From the NCBI GenBank assembly GCA_015064485.1, contig SVSD01000004.1, positions 62,001 through 126,000 on the forward strand: 64,000 bases of DNA. Direction: 5' to 3'. This stretch comes from Oscillospiraceae bacterium. GTDB lineage: Bacteria; Bacillota; Clostridia; Oscillospirales; CAG-382. Position 1 is the first letter of the stretch. The number at the start of each line of letters is the position of its first letter. A program made the translations under genes and the position numbers. Shown here one piece after another: positions 54,306-63,960 of the stretch. The notes below the pieces were generated by a model, which did not search any database, was not told the origin of the DNA, and was given only the letters and a program-made list of their open reading frames with translations.

Positions 54306-55493
54306 TTATGCTATCTGCAATATTACAAGATGGGAAGATGCGGGAAGTTCGCCGGCTCCGGATGCCGAAATTGTTACAGGCGCCACACTGCTTGTGGAAT
54401 TGGACAGTGTAAGAAGTGAATTTTCTTCAGTTGTCGTTACAAGAACAGAACCGTTCACAGGTGTAACTCCGTCTACAACAGGAGGATTTGCAGTGTATAA
54501 GAGTTCTGTTCCGTTGAGAGTAAGAACAAGTTGACCGGTTCCTTCTATATAAGTGTTGAAGAGAACCAAATAAGTTCCTATTTCAGGAAGATTAAATGTG
54601 CTTGTATCGGTTCTTGTTATAACTCCGTTTGTCGGGCCGTCCTGAGGGAATTCAACATTTTCTCCTGCAGCTATTTCTGCAGCATTATCAGCAGGAGCAA
54701 GGGCATAAAAATCAGAAAAGTTTATAACTCCTGCGGGGCCTTGGGGACCTGTAGGACCTGCGGGACCTTGGGGACCTTCAGGGCCTGTGGGACCTGTCGC
54801 ACCTACAGGACCTTGGGGGCCTGTCGCACCTACCGGACCTTGAGGACCTGCGGGGCCTTCGGGACCTGTTGCGCCTACAGGACCTTGAGGGCCTGCGGGA
54901 CCTTCGGGGCCTGTTGCGCCTACCGGACCTTGAGGACCTGCGGGACCTTCGGGGCCTGTCGCACCTACCGGACCCTGAGGACCTTCAGGACCTGTGGGAC
55001 CTGTCGCACCTACCGGACCTTGGGGACCTGCGGGACCTTCGGGGCCTGTTGCACCTACCGGACCTTGGGGACCTGCGGGACCTTCGGGACCTGTTGCGCC
55101 TACAGGACCTTGGGGACCTGTTGCACCTACCGGACCTTGAGGGCCTGCGGGGCCTGTTGCTCCTGTTTCACCGACGGGTCCTTCCGGGCCTTGGGGGCCG
55201 ATCGGCCCTTGCGGGCCCTGTGGACCTTGAGGACCTTGAGGACCTGCTACACCCTGAGGACCTCTTGGTCCTACACAACAGCAATTTGCGTTGTTACAAC
55301 AGTTTCTGCAGTTTGTGATTCCGTTCGTACTACACGAAAGAACATTTCCATTATTAGAATTGCAACTGCAATTATTTGCACAGTTAGTAGTGCTGTTTGA
55401 ATTACTGTTAACACAGCAAGTTGTGGTGCAGTTAGCAGTACTGTTTGTGCATCCGCAAAGCGAACTTAAATTGTTATGGCAATAACGATTCAT
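54306..55493 (-). CDS. Collagen-like (G-X-Y) repeat protein with Cys-rich N-terminus and BclA-like C-terminal domain
   Basis: About 60 uninterrupted GPxGPx triplets; N-terminus rich in C/N/S/T; C-terminal beta-rich domain; GAAAGGTG RBS before ATG at 55493. Confidence 0.9.
54729..55270 (-). repeat. Tandem collagen-coding repeats (about 45-bp unit, [15 protein letters not shown])
   Basis: Near-identical DNA units such as ggacctgcgggaccttcggggcctgttgcacctaccggaccttgg repeated. Confidence 0.9.
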
Positions 55494-55606
55494 ATAATCA
55501 CCTTTCAAACCTGCTTTTTTCGCAGGTAGTGTATTATATGACGAAATATTGAATTTTGATAGTAGTAAATAGAGCGTTCTCTTCTGAGAAACTATACACC
55601 TTCTCC

Positions 55607-59065: not shown

Positions 59066-59101
59066 AAAAGAAAAAGTACCCTCTCGGGTACTTTTCTTTT
59101 T
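59066..59101. terminator. Second terminator-like inverted repeat
   Basis: AAAAAGAAAAAGTACCC-TCTC-GGGTACTTTTCTTTTT, one bulged base. Confidence 0.7.
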
Positions 59102-59127
59102 GGGAAATAACTCTAATTTTGATAAAA

Positions 59128-59179
59128 TGCACCCCCTGTAAGGGATTTTGCACCCCCTTATAGTGAAAATGCACCCCCT
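59128..59179 (+). repeat. Three direct repeats TGCACCCCCT with exact 21-bp period
   Basis: Copies at 59128-59137, 59149-59158, 59170-59179, each preceded by an A/T-rich tetranucleotide. Confidence 0.9.
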
Positions 59180-59213
59180 AAAGAAAAAGGAGGGGCTACT
59201 CCACTCCTTTTAA

Positions 59214-61091
59214 TTATTGCTTTTTTCGACCCGAACAATACGGGCATCCACGACCTTTATTTCTATGATATATCGCCGCTTGCCACTCGTGTCCCTTTTC
59301 ACATTTCCACCATACTTTTTTGTTGCTATTTGCTGCAAAATGCTCAGGTTTCAGATTGCCATTCTTTTCATAATTCCATTCTTTTGCTACTTGAGGATTA
59401 GAAAACAAAAGAGAATTTGCTTTTTCTGTGTGCTCACGCAAATTATCTATAGCAATAGTGTCTCTTTCAAGGTTGACATCAACACTCGTTCCGATTATTT
59501 CACTTAATACTTCTTCTAGTATTTTGGGCAAATCTTTTTGGCTTTTTTGAACGACATAATCTATAGAACTGTCATTTAACTTAGGTAGATCCTCTCTTAT
59601 TCTGTATAATTTGATTCCATCTTTTTTACACTTTTGATTTTTCTCTAAATCTTTTTCTGTTTTATTTTTGTGCCAATAACAACCATCATATTCTATTGCG
59701 ATTTTTTTATAAGGAATATAAACATCTAATTCGTAACCTTGCTCTCTATACGAATGTACTACCTCTAACCCATGTTTTTCAAGATAGTATACAAGTGCAT
59801 ATTCAGGAAAAGAAGTGTTGCGTTCAGAATTACAAACGGGACATCCGCGGCCATTATTCCTATTTGATATTTTAGCTCGCCATTCGTGTCCTTTGTTACA
59901 TTTCCACCACACAGTTATATTGCTGTTTGCCATAATATTTTCTGGTTTTAGCTCGCCGTTCTTTTCGTAATTCCATTCTTTTGCTAAAACTGGATTAACC
60001 GTTTGTAAATCATTTTCACCTTTAACGGCATATCGACCCGAGCAATACGGGCATCCGATTCCAGAATTTCGACTGTCTATCGTTGCCTGCCACTCGTGTC
60101 CTTTGTTGCACTTCCACCATACTTTTTTGTGGCTATTTGCTAAAAACCTTTCCGGTATTAAGTTGCCGTTTTTTTCATAATTCCATTCTTTTGCTAAAAC
60201 CGGATTAACCGTTTGTAAATCATTTTCACCTTTAACAGCATATCGACCCGAGCAGTACGGGCATTCAATCCCAGTATTTCTACTATATATCGTTGCCTGC
60301 CACTCGTGTCCTGTGTCACACTTCCACCAGACCTTTTTATTGCTATTAGACAATACTTCATCAGGAGTTAATCCTGTATTCTTTTCATAATTCCATTCTT
60401 TCGCTAAAGTTGGATTAACTGTTTGTAAATCATTCTCACCTTTAACAGTGAATAAACCCGAGCAATACGGGCATCCGTTCCCATTATTCCTGCTATCTAT
60501 CCTTGCTTGCCACTCATGTCCCTTTTCGCATTTCCACCAAACTTTTTTTGAGCTATTAGGCGTTACGTCCACAGGAGTTAATCCATTATTTTTTTGATAA
60601 TTCCATTCCTTGGATAAAATAGGATTTGACTTTTGTAAATCATTATACCCTTTTAAAATCTTTTTACTTGAACAATATGGACATCCACTCCCATTGTTTC
60701 TGCTATTTATCGTTGCCTGCCATTCGTGTTTCTTTTCGCATTTCCACCATACCTTTTCAGTACTGTTCGCAGAAAAATTTTCAGGTTTTAAATCACCGTT
60801 TTTTTCATAATTCCATCCGCTTGCTAAAATTGGATTAACTGTTTGTAAATCATTATATCCCTTTAAAACTTTTTTTCCTGAACAATATGGACAACCGCGT
60901 CCATTGGTTCTATTGCATATAGTCGCTTGCCATTCGTGTCCTTTGTTGCATTTCCACCAAACTTTCTGTCCGCTACCTATGGTTATTTGCGATGGATCAA
61001 CATCTGCATTTCTTTCCCAGTTCCATTCAGCCATAAGTTGAGCATTATCGCTCACATATTGTTTTTCTTTCTTTTCTGCCACAATGCCCAC
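59214..61091 (-). CDS. Multi-zinc-ribbon (DUF4379-like) protein with embedded Vsr-like / PD-(D/E)XK-like nuclease domain
   Basis: Seven copies of a roughly 65-70 aa unit WNYEKNGxLxPexxxaNSxKKVWWKCxKGHEWQAxIxxRNxGxGCPYCSG; between copies 6 and 7: SFPEYALVYYLEKHGLEVVHSYREQGYELDVYIPYKKIAIEYDGCYWHKNKTEKDLEKNQKCKKDGIKLYRIRE. Confidence 0.85.
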   Translation of the reverse strand: MGIVAEKKEKQYVSDNAQLMAEWNWERNADVDPSQITIGSGQKVWWKCNKGHEWQATICNRTNGRGCPYCSGKKVLKGYNDLQTVNPILASGWNYEKNGDLKPENFSANSTEKVWWKCEKKHEWQATINSRNNGSGCPYCSSKKILKGYNDLQKSNPILSKEWNYQKNNGLTPVDVTPNSSKKVWWKCEKGHEWQARIDSRNNGNGCPYCSGLFTVKGENDLQTVNPTLAKEWNYEKNTGLTPDEVLSNSNKKVWWKCDTGHEWQATIYSRNTGIECPYCSGRYAVKGENDLQTVNPVLAKEWNYEKNGNLIPERFLANSHKKVWWKCNKGHEWQATIDSRNSGIGCPYCSGRYAVKGENDLQTVNPVLAKEWNYEKNGELKPENIMANSNITVWWKCNKGHEWRAKISNRNNGRGCPVCNSERNTSFPEYALVYYLEKHGLEVVHSYREQGYELDVYIPYKKIAIEYDGCYWHKNKTEKDLEKNQKCKKDGIKLYRIREDLPKLNDSSIDYVVQKSQKDLPKILEEVLSEIIGTSVDVNLERDTIAIDNLREHTEKANSLLFSNPQVAKEWNYEKNGNLKPEHFAANSNKKVWWKCEKGHEWQAAIYHRNKGRGCPYCSGRKKQ

Positions 61092-61161
61092 CTACTTTCA
61101 TAATCCTATTATACTAAAAAACGAACAAAAAGTCTATATAAAACAAGTAAATTATATCATC

Positions 61162-61211
61162 TGAACACTTTTTGCGCTATATGAACCCTATTTAAGGCAT
61201 ATGAACCCTTT
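61162..61211 (+). repeat. Three direct repeats TGAAC[AC]CT with exact 20-bp period
   Basis: TGAACACTTT 61162, TGAACCCTAT 61182, TGAACCCTTT 61202. Confidence 0.85.
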
Positions 61212-61319
61212 TACATTTATAAAAAATCGTAAAAACAAGAAAAAGCACTTCAACTCACCTTTGAATCGGTGAAAATTTTGAATCCAAAGTACCGAAAAGC
61301 CTTATTTTAAGCCAAAAAT

Positions 61320-61355
61320 TAATAACCCCAACTTTTTATCAAAGTTAGGGTTATA
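61320..61355 (-). terminator. Terminator downstream of tRNA-Leu
   Basis: Minus strand ATAACCCTAACTTTGATAAAAAGTTGGGGTTATTAATTTTT. Confidence 0.75.
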
Positions 61356-61358
61356 ATA

Positions 61359-61442
61359 TGGTGCGGCTGAAGGGACTTGAACCCCCACGTCGTTGACACC
61401 GGTTCCTAAGACCGGCGCGTCTGCCAGTTCCGCCACAGCCGC
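61359..61442 (-). tRNA. tRNA-Leu (anticodon UAG), CCA encoded
   Basis: Minus strand GCGGCTGTGGCGGAACTGGCAGACGCGCCGGTCTTAGGAACCGGTGTCAACGACGTGGGGGTTCAAGTCCCTTCAGCCGCACCA; 7-bp acceptor stem, anticodon loop CTTAGGA, long variable arm. Confidence 0.95.
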
Positions 61443-61555: not shown

Positions 61556-61584
61556 AAAACGCCCCTTTCAGGGCGTTTTATTTA
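61556..61584 (-). terminator. Terminator of stalk-domain gene
   Basis: AAAACGCCC-CTTTCA-GGGCGTTTT with flanking A/T tracts. Confidence 0.82.
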
Positions 61585-63960
61585 TCTTGTTTTTCCGACG
61601 GGAACTATCATAAATCCTTTTTCGGTCATAACAGTTTCAACCTTACTGAGTTTTTCGTTATACAAAGCACCGTTCCAATTTTCATCAGAAAGTGTTACTG
61701 CCTGTCCGCACCAAAAATCTTCAATCTTTCCGTCCTCATACTGCACTGTTATCTTACCGATTATAACAGTATCGGAACCTTCCGGAACAGATACGAGAAA
61801 ATGATCGGCAAATTCCGAATGTCCAAGCATTTTTCCGTTTTCAACAGGTGCCGACATATCTTCAAAGTTTTTGATATATGTACCGTCCTGGGGAATATAA
61901 TACTCAATTCTGTAATTATCAATAGTCTTGCCCGAAACATTTTCGGGATGCCAATAGAGTCTATATGAATATACACTCCAGACATTTGCCCTTTCAAGGC
62001 GCATATCATCATTTATTTTTATCGGGAAAGCTATCATTTTCCAGCCGTTTTCGATGTATTTTCCTTCATCGGATTTTAAACCTTTGACTTTTCCCGTCAA
62101 CGAGAAATACGAACGGTAAAAATCTTCTTCAGAAAGTGCCCATCCATCTGAAATAAAGCTTTCGCAAAGTGCTTTTTCTACAACCTTAACTTCTCCGTTT
62201 TCGTTATATACATACAAAACAGGAACAAGATACCAGCCAGCTTCTGTATATTCCGGTTTCTGATACGGTAGAATTTTTTCACATCTTCCGTCGGGATGAT
62301 ACACTTCAAAATAAAGGCTGTCAAGACTTGCAAGAAAACCTTTAGCAATATAGCTTTCCTTTTCTTCGAGCTTTATTGCTTTGCCGTAGCCTGCGCTGTC
62401 ATATACCGTCGTCACAGGATATTCGCTCCAGCCTGCCGAAAGATAGCTTTCAAGCTGAGTATTGAGTATCTTTATAGAAGTTTCATTCGGGGAATATACG
62501 GTTGTCAGTATTTCCTCAATGTCTTTATGCCAGCCCGAATTCAGGTATTCCTGCACCTGTGCTTCTTCTACGGCGACTGTTGTTCCGTCATCTGCATAAA
62601 GCACCTTTATCGGAACTTTATATTCCTTATATCCCGAACTTAAAGCATCATAAAGCTGCGCCGGGTGAACCGATGTGATATTTCCGGCATTATCGTATAC
62701 CTTAACAAGAATGTCGTTGATATCGTCTTTCAGACCTTCTTTTAGAAGTTCTTCTTTTTTATCGGCTGCGGCAATTACAACAGATCCGTCTTGGCAATAC
62801 ATCATAATTGCAGGCGTTAAATACCAGCCCTCATTTTTTAAAGTTTCAAATTCTTCAAGCGTTGCTTTCTTTGTTTCGCCTTCGGTGTTGTAGACATTAT
62901 ATATTATACTACCTCTGCCGCTTTCTTCCGAAGGCTTAAGGTTGCTGTCATAAACGGTACCGTCCCATTTATCGCCCTCGGTAAGTGCTTGTCCGCACCA
63001 GAACTTTTGAGTATTTCCGTCTCTGTATCTCAAAGTCACATTACCGATAAGAATTCGGGAACATTCACCTAACGAAGTAAGTTCAAAGAAGCAGCTTTCG
63101 GGGTCACTTGAAATTATTCCGAACTTTTCTCCGTTTTTGATCTGTCCGCTTAAGGACATCTGTCTTGTTTGAAACCCTTTATTTGAATCTTTTTCAACAT
63201 AATATATTTCTACGGTATATTTTGAGATTGTCTTGCCTGATGTGTTTTGAGGATGCCAGAAGATTTTTGTGACATTACCGGCTCTTTCATAAAAGCTTTC
63301 GTCATTTATGCTTATCGAGCTTTTTTTCTCTGACCAGCCGTTTAGCATATTTTCCTCTACGGTATCTATCGGAATTTCTGCCTGTGTCATAGAAGAATAA
63401 AGTGTTTTATACAATCCGTCTATCGACTCTTTAAAGCCGAGAGCAAGGTAATCTTCATAAAAAGCTTTGTCTATTTCTACTTCTTCGTGATTAAGATTAA
63501 AAAGAATTGCTTTTTCTATTTCTTTAGTGTTTATTGAAACGGTTTTAATATCAGAATACCAATTAACATCAACATCAAGGGCTTCTGCTACTGCTCTTAA
63601 CGGCACAAGAGTTCTTCCGTTTCTTATAATTGCAGGAACATCAAGGGCTTCTTTCTTACCGTTTACAAGCATTTCGCTTTCGCCGACCGAAAGCTTTATT
63701 TCGGTTTTGTCGGTATATGCGGAAACTGTCTTTGCAGAATCGTCCCATTCAACCTCAGCACCGAGCGATTCAAATATCGCTCTCATCGGCACCATAGTTC
63801 TTCCCTCAATTATTACAGGTGCAGTATCAGCGACTAATTTTTCTCCGTCGATACTTACCGAAACACCTCCGAAATCCGCAAATGCCGGAATTGACAGAAG
63901 GCAAAAAGATGTTAAGGCACCAAAAGCAAAGCATATTATTTTTTTCTTCAAATTTATCAC
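61582..63960 (-). CDS. Secreted stalk-domain (copper amine oxidase N-terminal-like) protein with internal repeats
   Basis: Signal peptide; VIIEGRTMVPMRAIFESLGAEVEWDDSAKTV and AIIRNGRTLVPLRAVAEALDVDVNWYSDIKTVSI; repeated VYxxxG...GW units and two FW[HP]-type domains. Confidence 0.85.
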   Translation of the reverse strand: MINLKKKIICFAFGALTSFCLLSIPAFADFGGVSVSIDGEKLVADTAPVIIEGRTMVPMRAIFESLGAEVEWDDSAKTVSAYTDKTEIKLSVGESEMLVNGKKEALDVPAIIRNGRTLVPLRAVAEALDVDVNWYSDIKTVSINTKEIEKAILFNLNHEEVEIDKAFYEDYLALGFKESIDGLYKTLYSSMTQAEIPIDTVEENMLNGWSEKKSSISINDESFYERAGNVTKIFWHPQNTSGKTISKYTVEIYYVEKDSNKGFQTRQMSLSGQIKNGEKFGIISSDPESCFFELTSLGECSRILIGNVTLRYRDGNTQKFWCGQALTEGDKWDGTVYDSNLKPSEESGRGSIIYNVYNTEGETKKATLEEFETLKNEGWYLTPAIMMYCQDGSVVIAAADKKEELLKEGLKDDINDILVKVYDNAGNITSVHPAQLYDALSSGYKEYKVPIKVLYADDGTTVAVEEAQVQEYLNSGWHKDIEEILTTVYSPNETSIKILNTQLESYLSAGWSEYPVTTVYDSAGYGKAIKLEEKESYIAKGFLASLDSLYFEVYHPDGRCEKILPYQKPEYTEAGWYLVPVLYVYNENGEVKVVEKALCESFISDGWALSEEDFYRSYFSLTGKVKGLKSDEGKYIENGWKMIAFPIKINDDMRLERANVWSVYSYRLYWHPENVSGKTIDNYRIEYYIPQDGTYIKNFEDMSAPVENGKMLGHSEFADHFLVSVPEGSDTVIIGKITVQYEDGKIEDFWCGQAVTLSDENWNGALYNEKLSKVETVMTEKGFMIVPVGKTR

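Follow-up and report, generated by a model that had tools for sequence, protein, structure and literature searches.

The Vsr/EDxHD nucleases include the mismatch endonuclease Vsr of Escherichia coli and homing endonucleases such as I-Bth0305I. In 2025 a large unrecognised outgroup was described among the homing genes of phage group II introns, in which arrays of CapR/DUF4379/DUF723-like units are followed by a C-terminal EDxHD/Vsr domain (PMC12350094). A gene of this kind lies in a 64,000-nucleotide stretch of DNA from an Oscillospiraceae bacterium (contig SVSD01000004.1, positions 62,001 to 126,000), hereafter called the window; its genome is referred to as G000. This DUF4379-Vsr gene has the finger array, the EDxHD/Vsr domain, the fold and the catalytic-type residues in common with I-Bth0305I and the intron outgroup. 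Nevertheless, the intron proteins carry 3-5 units before a C-terminal nuclease and are encoded inside an intron, whereas here 1-8 units were found before and 0-9 after the nuclease among the homologues, and the gene is free-standing in a cassette behind a tRNA gene. With E. coli Vsr it shares the nuclease fold and the E-D-H residues, but it falls far under the Vsr family cut-off and has an added finger array. Since PMC12350094 describes intron homing genes with such domains, the combination of a DUF4379 array with EDxHD/Vsr is not new. A preliminary description, made from the sequence alone, was only partly right in calling the protein uncharacterised; PMC12350094 counts proteins with this pairing of domains among the homing endonucleases. 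The protein adds a new member to a large nuclease family of which little has been characterised, and it is the setting that is new.

Several described systems resemble this setting. Integron gene cassettes, too, are small, lack a recombinase of their own and are linked in tandem via short conserved sites; here, however, no integron integrase was found, anchoring is at the CCA of a tRNA, and the left end carries its own terminator. Cis-mobilizable elements (CIMEs) or hitcher elements and the ssrA islands of Dehalococcoides (PMC3146451, PMC11389934) likewise have attachment ends, form tandem arrays behind a structural RNA gene and need a helper. By contrast, the cassettes described here measure about 0.5-4 kb, hold one to few genes and no recombination module, use many tRNAs, and share only CCA with the target at their far end instead of a tRNA segment. 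SNIPE (PD-lambda-1), a membrane-bound nuclease with proven anti-phage activity, which cleaves the DNA of phages as it enters (PMC13190303), is found in cassettes with the same ends, one of them in G000. It joins a DNA-binding module to a nuclease, as the present protein may do, although with a membrane anchor, DUF4041 and a GIY-YIG nuclease in place of the fingers and the Vsr domain. No description of such tRNA-CCA cassettes was found in the literature searched. The reading preferred here, with a probability of about 0.58, is that the DUF4379-Vsr protein is a mobile, probably anti-phage nuclease, the cargo of a small recombinase-less cassette that inserts between the CCA of a tRNA and its terminator.

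Cassette ends and insertion sites

A tRNA-Leu gene ends 268 bp upstream of the DUF4379-Vsr gene on the same strand. When the congeners were searched with the intergenic DNA, the same flanks were found around other genes and behind other tRNAs. In the alignment with locus L050, a relative behind tRNA-Ser, similarity extended from right after the tRNA CCA to the right end (RE), ...TTAGAGTTATTTCCCA, beyond which the terminators of the window and L050 were unrelated. The features of the locus, all on the minus strand, are the following:

61359..61442, minus: tRNA-Leu (tag), from ARAGORN and Rfam RF00005; its encoded CCA is immediately followed by the cassette
59101..61358, minus: whole cassette, very probably mobile, 2,258 bp, running from the first base 3' of the tRNA CCA through the CCA of the RE (alignment with L050)
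61321..61358, minus: left end (LE), CCA-N3-arm ATAACCCTAACTTTGATAAAA, forming the cassette's own terminator hairpin with a stem of 14 bp (terminator scan)
61158..61208, minus: three left subterminal direct repeats GGGTTCAtAtg, period 20-21 bp (61199-61208, 61179-61188, 61158-61168)
61108..61136, minus: candidate promoter TAGACT-17-TATAAT of the nuclease gene, from a consensus scan only and not above chance
59214..61091, minus: DUF4379(x7)-Vsr/EDxHD nuclease gene, 625 aa, GTG start, uninterrupted open reading frame without frameshift
59832..61043, minus: tandem array of six DUF4379 treble-clef units, covering approximately residues 17-420
59535..59822, minus: Vsr/EDxHD nuclease domain, about residues 424-519 (profile matches, alignment, model)
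59229..59396, minus: seventh DUF4379 unit (Pfam match, motif positions)
59128..59178, minus: three right subterminal direct repeats GGGGGTGCA, period 21 bp (59170-59178, 59149-59157, 59128-59136)
59101..59127, minus: RE, TTTTATCAAAATTAGAGTTATT-TC-CCA (arm searches)
59070..59096, minus: strong terminator directly after the RE (terminator scan)

The LE follows the consensus CCA-N3-AWRACYSYAAYTTTGATAMAAAG, the same motif being present after the CCA in about 16 cassettes, and the RE is the inverted arm, TTKTATSAWAATTASRGTYATT-N2-CCA. All three left subterminal repeats (GGGTTCA) were also present in L050. The terminator at 59070..59096 was read as the native terminator of tRNA-Leu, displaced by the insertion. 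The far end held no copy of the tRNA 3' segment, such as forms the attachment (att) core of islands, and only CCA is common to it. Remnants of tRNAs were observed on the left side in some cassette loci, and no known RNA family was found in the cassette ends.

A search with the 22-bp RE arm, using a pattern without CCA, gave 30 matches; CCA stood at exactly +2 in 10 of them, and TGG stood next to the arm in 8 more, as expected for a left end behind CCA. The chance expectation for a fixed trinucleotide beside the arm is about one in 64. Later searches had CCA in the pattern and were not usable for this count; they gave 22 matches in 17 of 394 genomes of the order and further ones in the class, and the reversed control gave 0. 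A strong hairpin was found directly after 28 of 32 RE sites (median z -6.6), and in empty tRNA loci of relatives the CCA was directly followed by such a terminator. Therefore, the insertion was read as lying between the tRNA and its terminator. About 17 cassettes were read with both ends, in many clostridial genomes, located after tRNA-Leu, Ser, Gln, Trp or Met or after the 3' remnant of a tRNA. In G004, G023 and G229, tandem cassettes had one RE-CCA-LE junction in common; there, two inverted arms of 22 bp flank an 8-bp spacer, NNCCANNN, and such a geometry would fit either a tyrosine recombinase or a large serine recombinase (LSR).

Additionally, a second end type was recognised in a 2,518-bp cassette with a DUF4379-Vsr gene and a DUF2513 gene, 99.92% identical in loci L060 and L036 of two species representatives. 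In L060 it is located at tRNA-Tyr (same sequence as L003 of G005) and in L036 at a tRNA-Leu 3' remnant. This cassette begins exactly at the tRNA CACCA, and its right end, ATATCTTTTTTATAGYCCTTACACA, recurs before terminators in G005, G033 and G035, with other cargo in G033. Since this right end does not terminate in CCA, the CCA rule applies to the left side in both types and to the right side in the first type only. Two contigs, G005:C20 and G005:C53 (L301, L302), break off 115 bp into the right end of the second type, which is what a repeat present in several copies would cause during assembly.

Such loci might also be remnants of prophages or of integrative and conjugative elements (ICEs) at tRNA genes, the ends being attL and attR and the middle deleted. 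Prophage and ICE integrations typically leave tRNA 3' remnants such as those seen beside several of the cassettes, and integrases stand beside some DUF4379-Vsr genes (at tRNA-Pro in L004 and L031), as does an LSR in L263. However, independent deletions would yield neither the same compact end-cargo-end units with many cargos, nor tandem units with a shared RE-CCA-LE junction, nor a 99.92% identical unit at two tRNAs, and this explanation was judged improbable. Mobility of the cassette itself, on the other hand, is very likely.

Horizontal spread and the source of a recombinase

Relatives of the gene were encoded in 214 stretches of one bacterial and archaeal genome collection, which excludes chance; the analysis retained the 80 best loci. 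Phage records (304) and plasmid records (96) gave further matches, none of which reached 60% identity. The gene is single-copy in its own genome, and a match was found in 15 of 60 relatives of the same order but in 0 of 4 genomes of the same genus. The DUF4379-Vsr family moves horizontally: with this distribution and the tRNA-anchored cassette, the vertical core-genome conservation that would speak against mobility was not observed. With all families taken together, a same-strand tRNA end was found within 700 nt upstream at 23 of 78 DUF4379-Vsr loci, compared with 1 of 165 control genes (Fisher p = 6e-12, from loci that are not fully independent).

No recombinase was present in any cassette read. 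A resident integrase was considered and rejected: G000 has only two tyrosine recombinases, both XerC/XerD-like, and no RE motif was located near the integrase loci fetched. An integron integrase beside an array was not found either, the recombinases of G000 being only XerC/XerD-like. An LSR was the other candidate; it was present in 11 of 15 cassette genomes and absent from G038 despite the three cassettes of that genome, and was rejected, neither RE nor LE being located beside the LSR at any of the LSR loci fetched from cassette genomes. At L263, a prophage-like end, an LSR gene adjoins a DUF4379-Vsr gene and an RE, on a contig without LE. As for a vehicle, the viral contigs held no LE or full junction, and the plasmids no RE. 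Integrase genes, of Tn916 type by eye, were convergent to the DUF4379-Vsr genes in L004, L031 and L042, with tRNA-Pro adjoining in L004 and L031.

Genome G598 has a cassette-free tRNA-Ser locus with left-side homology of 81% over 745 bp. The right flanks, compared between the window and G002 and between G461 and G598, were not above, or barely above, shuffled sequence.

No conserved operon partner was found among the neighbours of the kept loci, which were mostly unrelated genes. The only recurring ones were DUF2513, which Pfam recognised in 4 of 63 downstream neighbours and clustering in six loci, and serine recombinases, present at 10 loci. The DUF2513-type gene was located 3' of the DUF4379-Vsr gene in L002, L003, L023, L036, L060 and L078, and travels with it in the second cassette type. 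A conserved protein of ~180-230 aa with the motif ECDFxDxVxxEKFDxKxPI, a possible partner, was encoded directly upstream of the DUF4379-Vsr genes in L032, L040 and L045; a cassette that encodes a 608-aa protein holds it as well (L284 2-550). Other genes of the window encode a collagen-like protein of 400 aa, which has long GPxGPx repeats and an N-terminus rich in Cys and Asn (54306-55508, minus), and a 792-aa surface-type protein (61582-63960, minus) with an N-terminal domain that resembles copper-amine-oxidase repeats by eye and with several relatives per congener genome.

The finger array and the nuclease domain

The preliminary description had read six tandem units, an inserted domain and a seventh unit, and this anatomy was borne out. 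The DUF4379 profile (PF14311) matched the protein in seven stretches (E = 6.4e-153, 497.5 bits against a Pfam cut-off of 24.5), with WWxC at residues 45, 115, 185, 255, 325, 395 and then 594, and CPxC at residues 67, 137, 207, 277, 347, 417 and 616. Units 1-6 have a period of exactly 70 residues, and unit 7 is C-terminal of the nuclease domain. The ligand set C-x3-H-x14-C-x2-C of DUF4379 is complete in all units (C-H-C-C); the units had been named zinc ribbons in the preliminary description, whereas Pfam describes a probable treble clef finger. Looking for a finger 'code', the variable positions were found at +14, +18 and +20 after WW. In the full-length model the units were confident and their mutual placement undefined (pLDDT 90.5, pTM 0.45). 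Twenty-three combinations of unit numbers before and after the nuclease were counted among the homologues, 3+3 being the commonest, with 6+1 in the window and 3+4 in L050. This wide variation indicated that the array is reshuffled around a fixed nuclease core. While the preliminary description had the anatomy of the reading frame right, it had missed this turnover, the tRNA and the cassette ends, which are mostly outside the frame.

The inserted domain (~424-519) matched the profiles REase_MTES_1575 (3e-6), Vsr TIGR00632 (6e-4) and the PADLOC homing endonuclease profile 'HEase' (1.9e-5) and, used as a profile, matched I-Bth0305I (PDB 3r3p, E = 0.0017). The cut-off of TIGR00632, the Vsr mismatch endonuclease, was missed (20.1 bits against 97.85 in NCBIfam). 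The domain was hence regarded as a remote family member, the Pfam and NCBIfam matches falling under the curated cut-offs. Across 75 aligned homologues, E430, D456, E467, D469, G470, H474, K484 and R497 (window numbering) were invariant and D481 nearly so. The segment between repeats 6 and 7, for which structure prediction had been proposed, gave a confident AlphaFold2 model (pLDDT 91.3, pTM 0.86). In Foldseek searches against the PDB its best match was I-Bth0305I (3r3p; probability 1.0, target TM-score 0.65-0.66), with E. coli Vsr (1vsr, probability 0.99) and the small subunit of R.BspD6I also among the best matches, at modest E-values of 2e-3 to 3e-2. The predicted fold and the invariant E, D and H residues agree, and they support a Vsr/EDxHD nuclease fold with conserved catalytic-type residues, as the preliminary claim of a Vsr-like PD-(D/E)XK nuclease had it.

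These matches bear on a second explanation, a free-standing homing endonuclease without any defence role, whose fingers would recognise the tRNA 3' region or the empty site, whose EDxHD domain would cut there, and whose gene would be copied by repair. EDxHD is a homing-endonuclease family with I-Bth0305I as the top structural match, the homing genes of the intron outgroup combine such arrays with EDxHD/Vsr (PMC12350094), the top PHROG matches include families annotated as endonuclease and one as homing endonuclease, and several types of cassette end show a clustering of DUF4379-Vsr genes behind tRNAs. Nevertheless, the same ends hold unrelated cargo in genomes without a match to the gene (G004, G006, G023, G038), so that the ends appear independent of the DUF4379-Vsr nuclease, although for the same-ended cassettes without the gene an action in trans is conceivable. 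Furthermore, insertion at many different tRNAs does not fit homing to one allele, and about half of the close clostridial relatives have no tRNA within 1 kb. Homing as the sole role was thus considered rather unlikely.

Quite improbable, in turn, is a nuclease directed to RNA, in which the fingers would bind structured RNA of tRNA or phage origin and the Vsr-like domain would act on RNA or only serve as an RNA-binding scaffold, a role that has been proposed for the Vsr-like RAP domains of mitochondrial proteins. It is favoured by the solved DUF4379 relatives, which are mitoribosome proteins (6sga, 7aor), by the mitoribosomal proteins of T. gondii (9i05) among the lower-ranked fold matches, and by human FASTKD4, a Vsr-like protein reported to regulate RNA (PMC11879112). 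However, none of the acidic and His residues that mark the DNA-cutting Vsr/EDxHD family varies here, and DNA nucleases are the nearest structural matches.

Cargo and probable role

Three same-ended cassettes carried PD-lambda-1/SNIPE (E as low as 1.5e-162), among them one in the window's own genome; a MjaI-type type II restriction-modification (R-M) system was present in two and an AAA ATPase in one. As plain counts, established defence genes were thus seen on the common carrier three times with PD-lambda-1 and twice with type II R-M, alongside unknown cargo. The preliminary description had proposed a defence, restriction-like or homing function; defence gained support by association only, through these sister cassettes, and homing retains a place because of PMC12350094.

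The second same-ended cassette of G000 (G000:C21:1530-3208, L179) encodes PD-lambda-1/SNIPE of DUF4041-T5orf172 type and stands behind a tRNA 3' remnant ending CCCGACCA. The MjaI-type R-M cassettes (L272 4087-6304, L273 2998-5992) follow tRNA-Leu(tag), whose terminator is present in duplicate, one copy on either side, and in L272 terminator and tRNA remnant flank the R-M unit on both sides. A three-gene cassette behind a tRNA-Ser remnant (L265 1478-4691, minus) includes an AAA-type ATPase that resembles ATPases regarded as defence candidates.

According to the preferred reading, that of a probably anti-phage cargo nuclease, the array of treble-clef fingers would bind nucleic acid, most likely DNA, and would position the Vsr/EDxHD domain to nick or cut it. 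A restriction-like function that protects against phage DNA would be the likeliest role, and on balance defence is favoured as the main one. DNA rather than RNA is the probable target, and the fingers would then read DNA. A recombinase provided in trans would move the cassette. The CCA of the tRNA and that of the right end would form a short shared core at which, judging from the junctions, the crossover may occur, and the terminator brought along by the cassette would keep the tRNA functional.

Several observations weigh against this reading. No recombinase could be tied to the cassettes among the loci fetched from cassette genomes, and an empty site homologous on both sides was not found. 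The solved relatives of DUF4379 are mitoribosome factors, pointing to RNA, and PMC12350094 assigned the same combination of domains to homing endonucleases. Other cargo comprises ankyrin proteins, a methyltransferase, small proteins and unknowns; since several cassettes hold such non-defence or unknown cargo, defence by association is not compelling.

More broadly, and tentatively, the cassettes may represent an undescribed clostridial system with the universal tRNA CCA as recombination core, integron-like arrays and mainly anti-phage cargo, including a reshuffled finger-array Vsr nuclease; this wider proposal was given somewhat less than even odds. If it is true, any tRNA gene that encodes CCA, or any cassette that ends in CCA, would accept a new unit between tRNA and terminator, and tRNA ends would be general docking sites for swapping single defence genes among gut clostridia. 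The RE arm, TTKTATSAWAATTASRGTYATT-NN-CCA, would then be a simple tag for finding new defence genes, the cargo including SNIPE, restriction systems and unknowns. The large finger-array EDxHD/Vsr family, until now regarded as homing endonucleases or hypothetical proteins, would gain a testable anti-phage setting, and the nuclease of the window probably belongs to a little-known route by which gut bacteria trade phage-defence genes.
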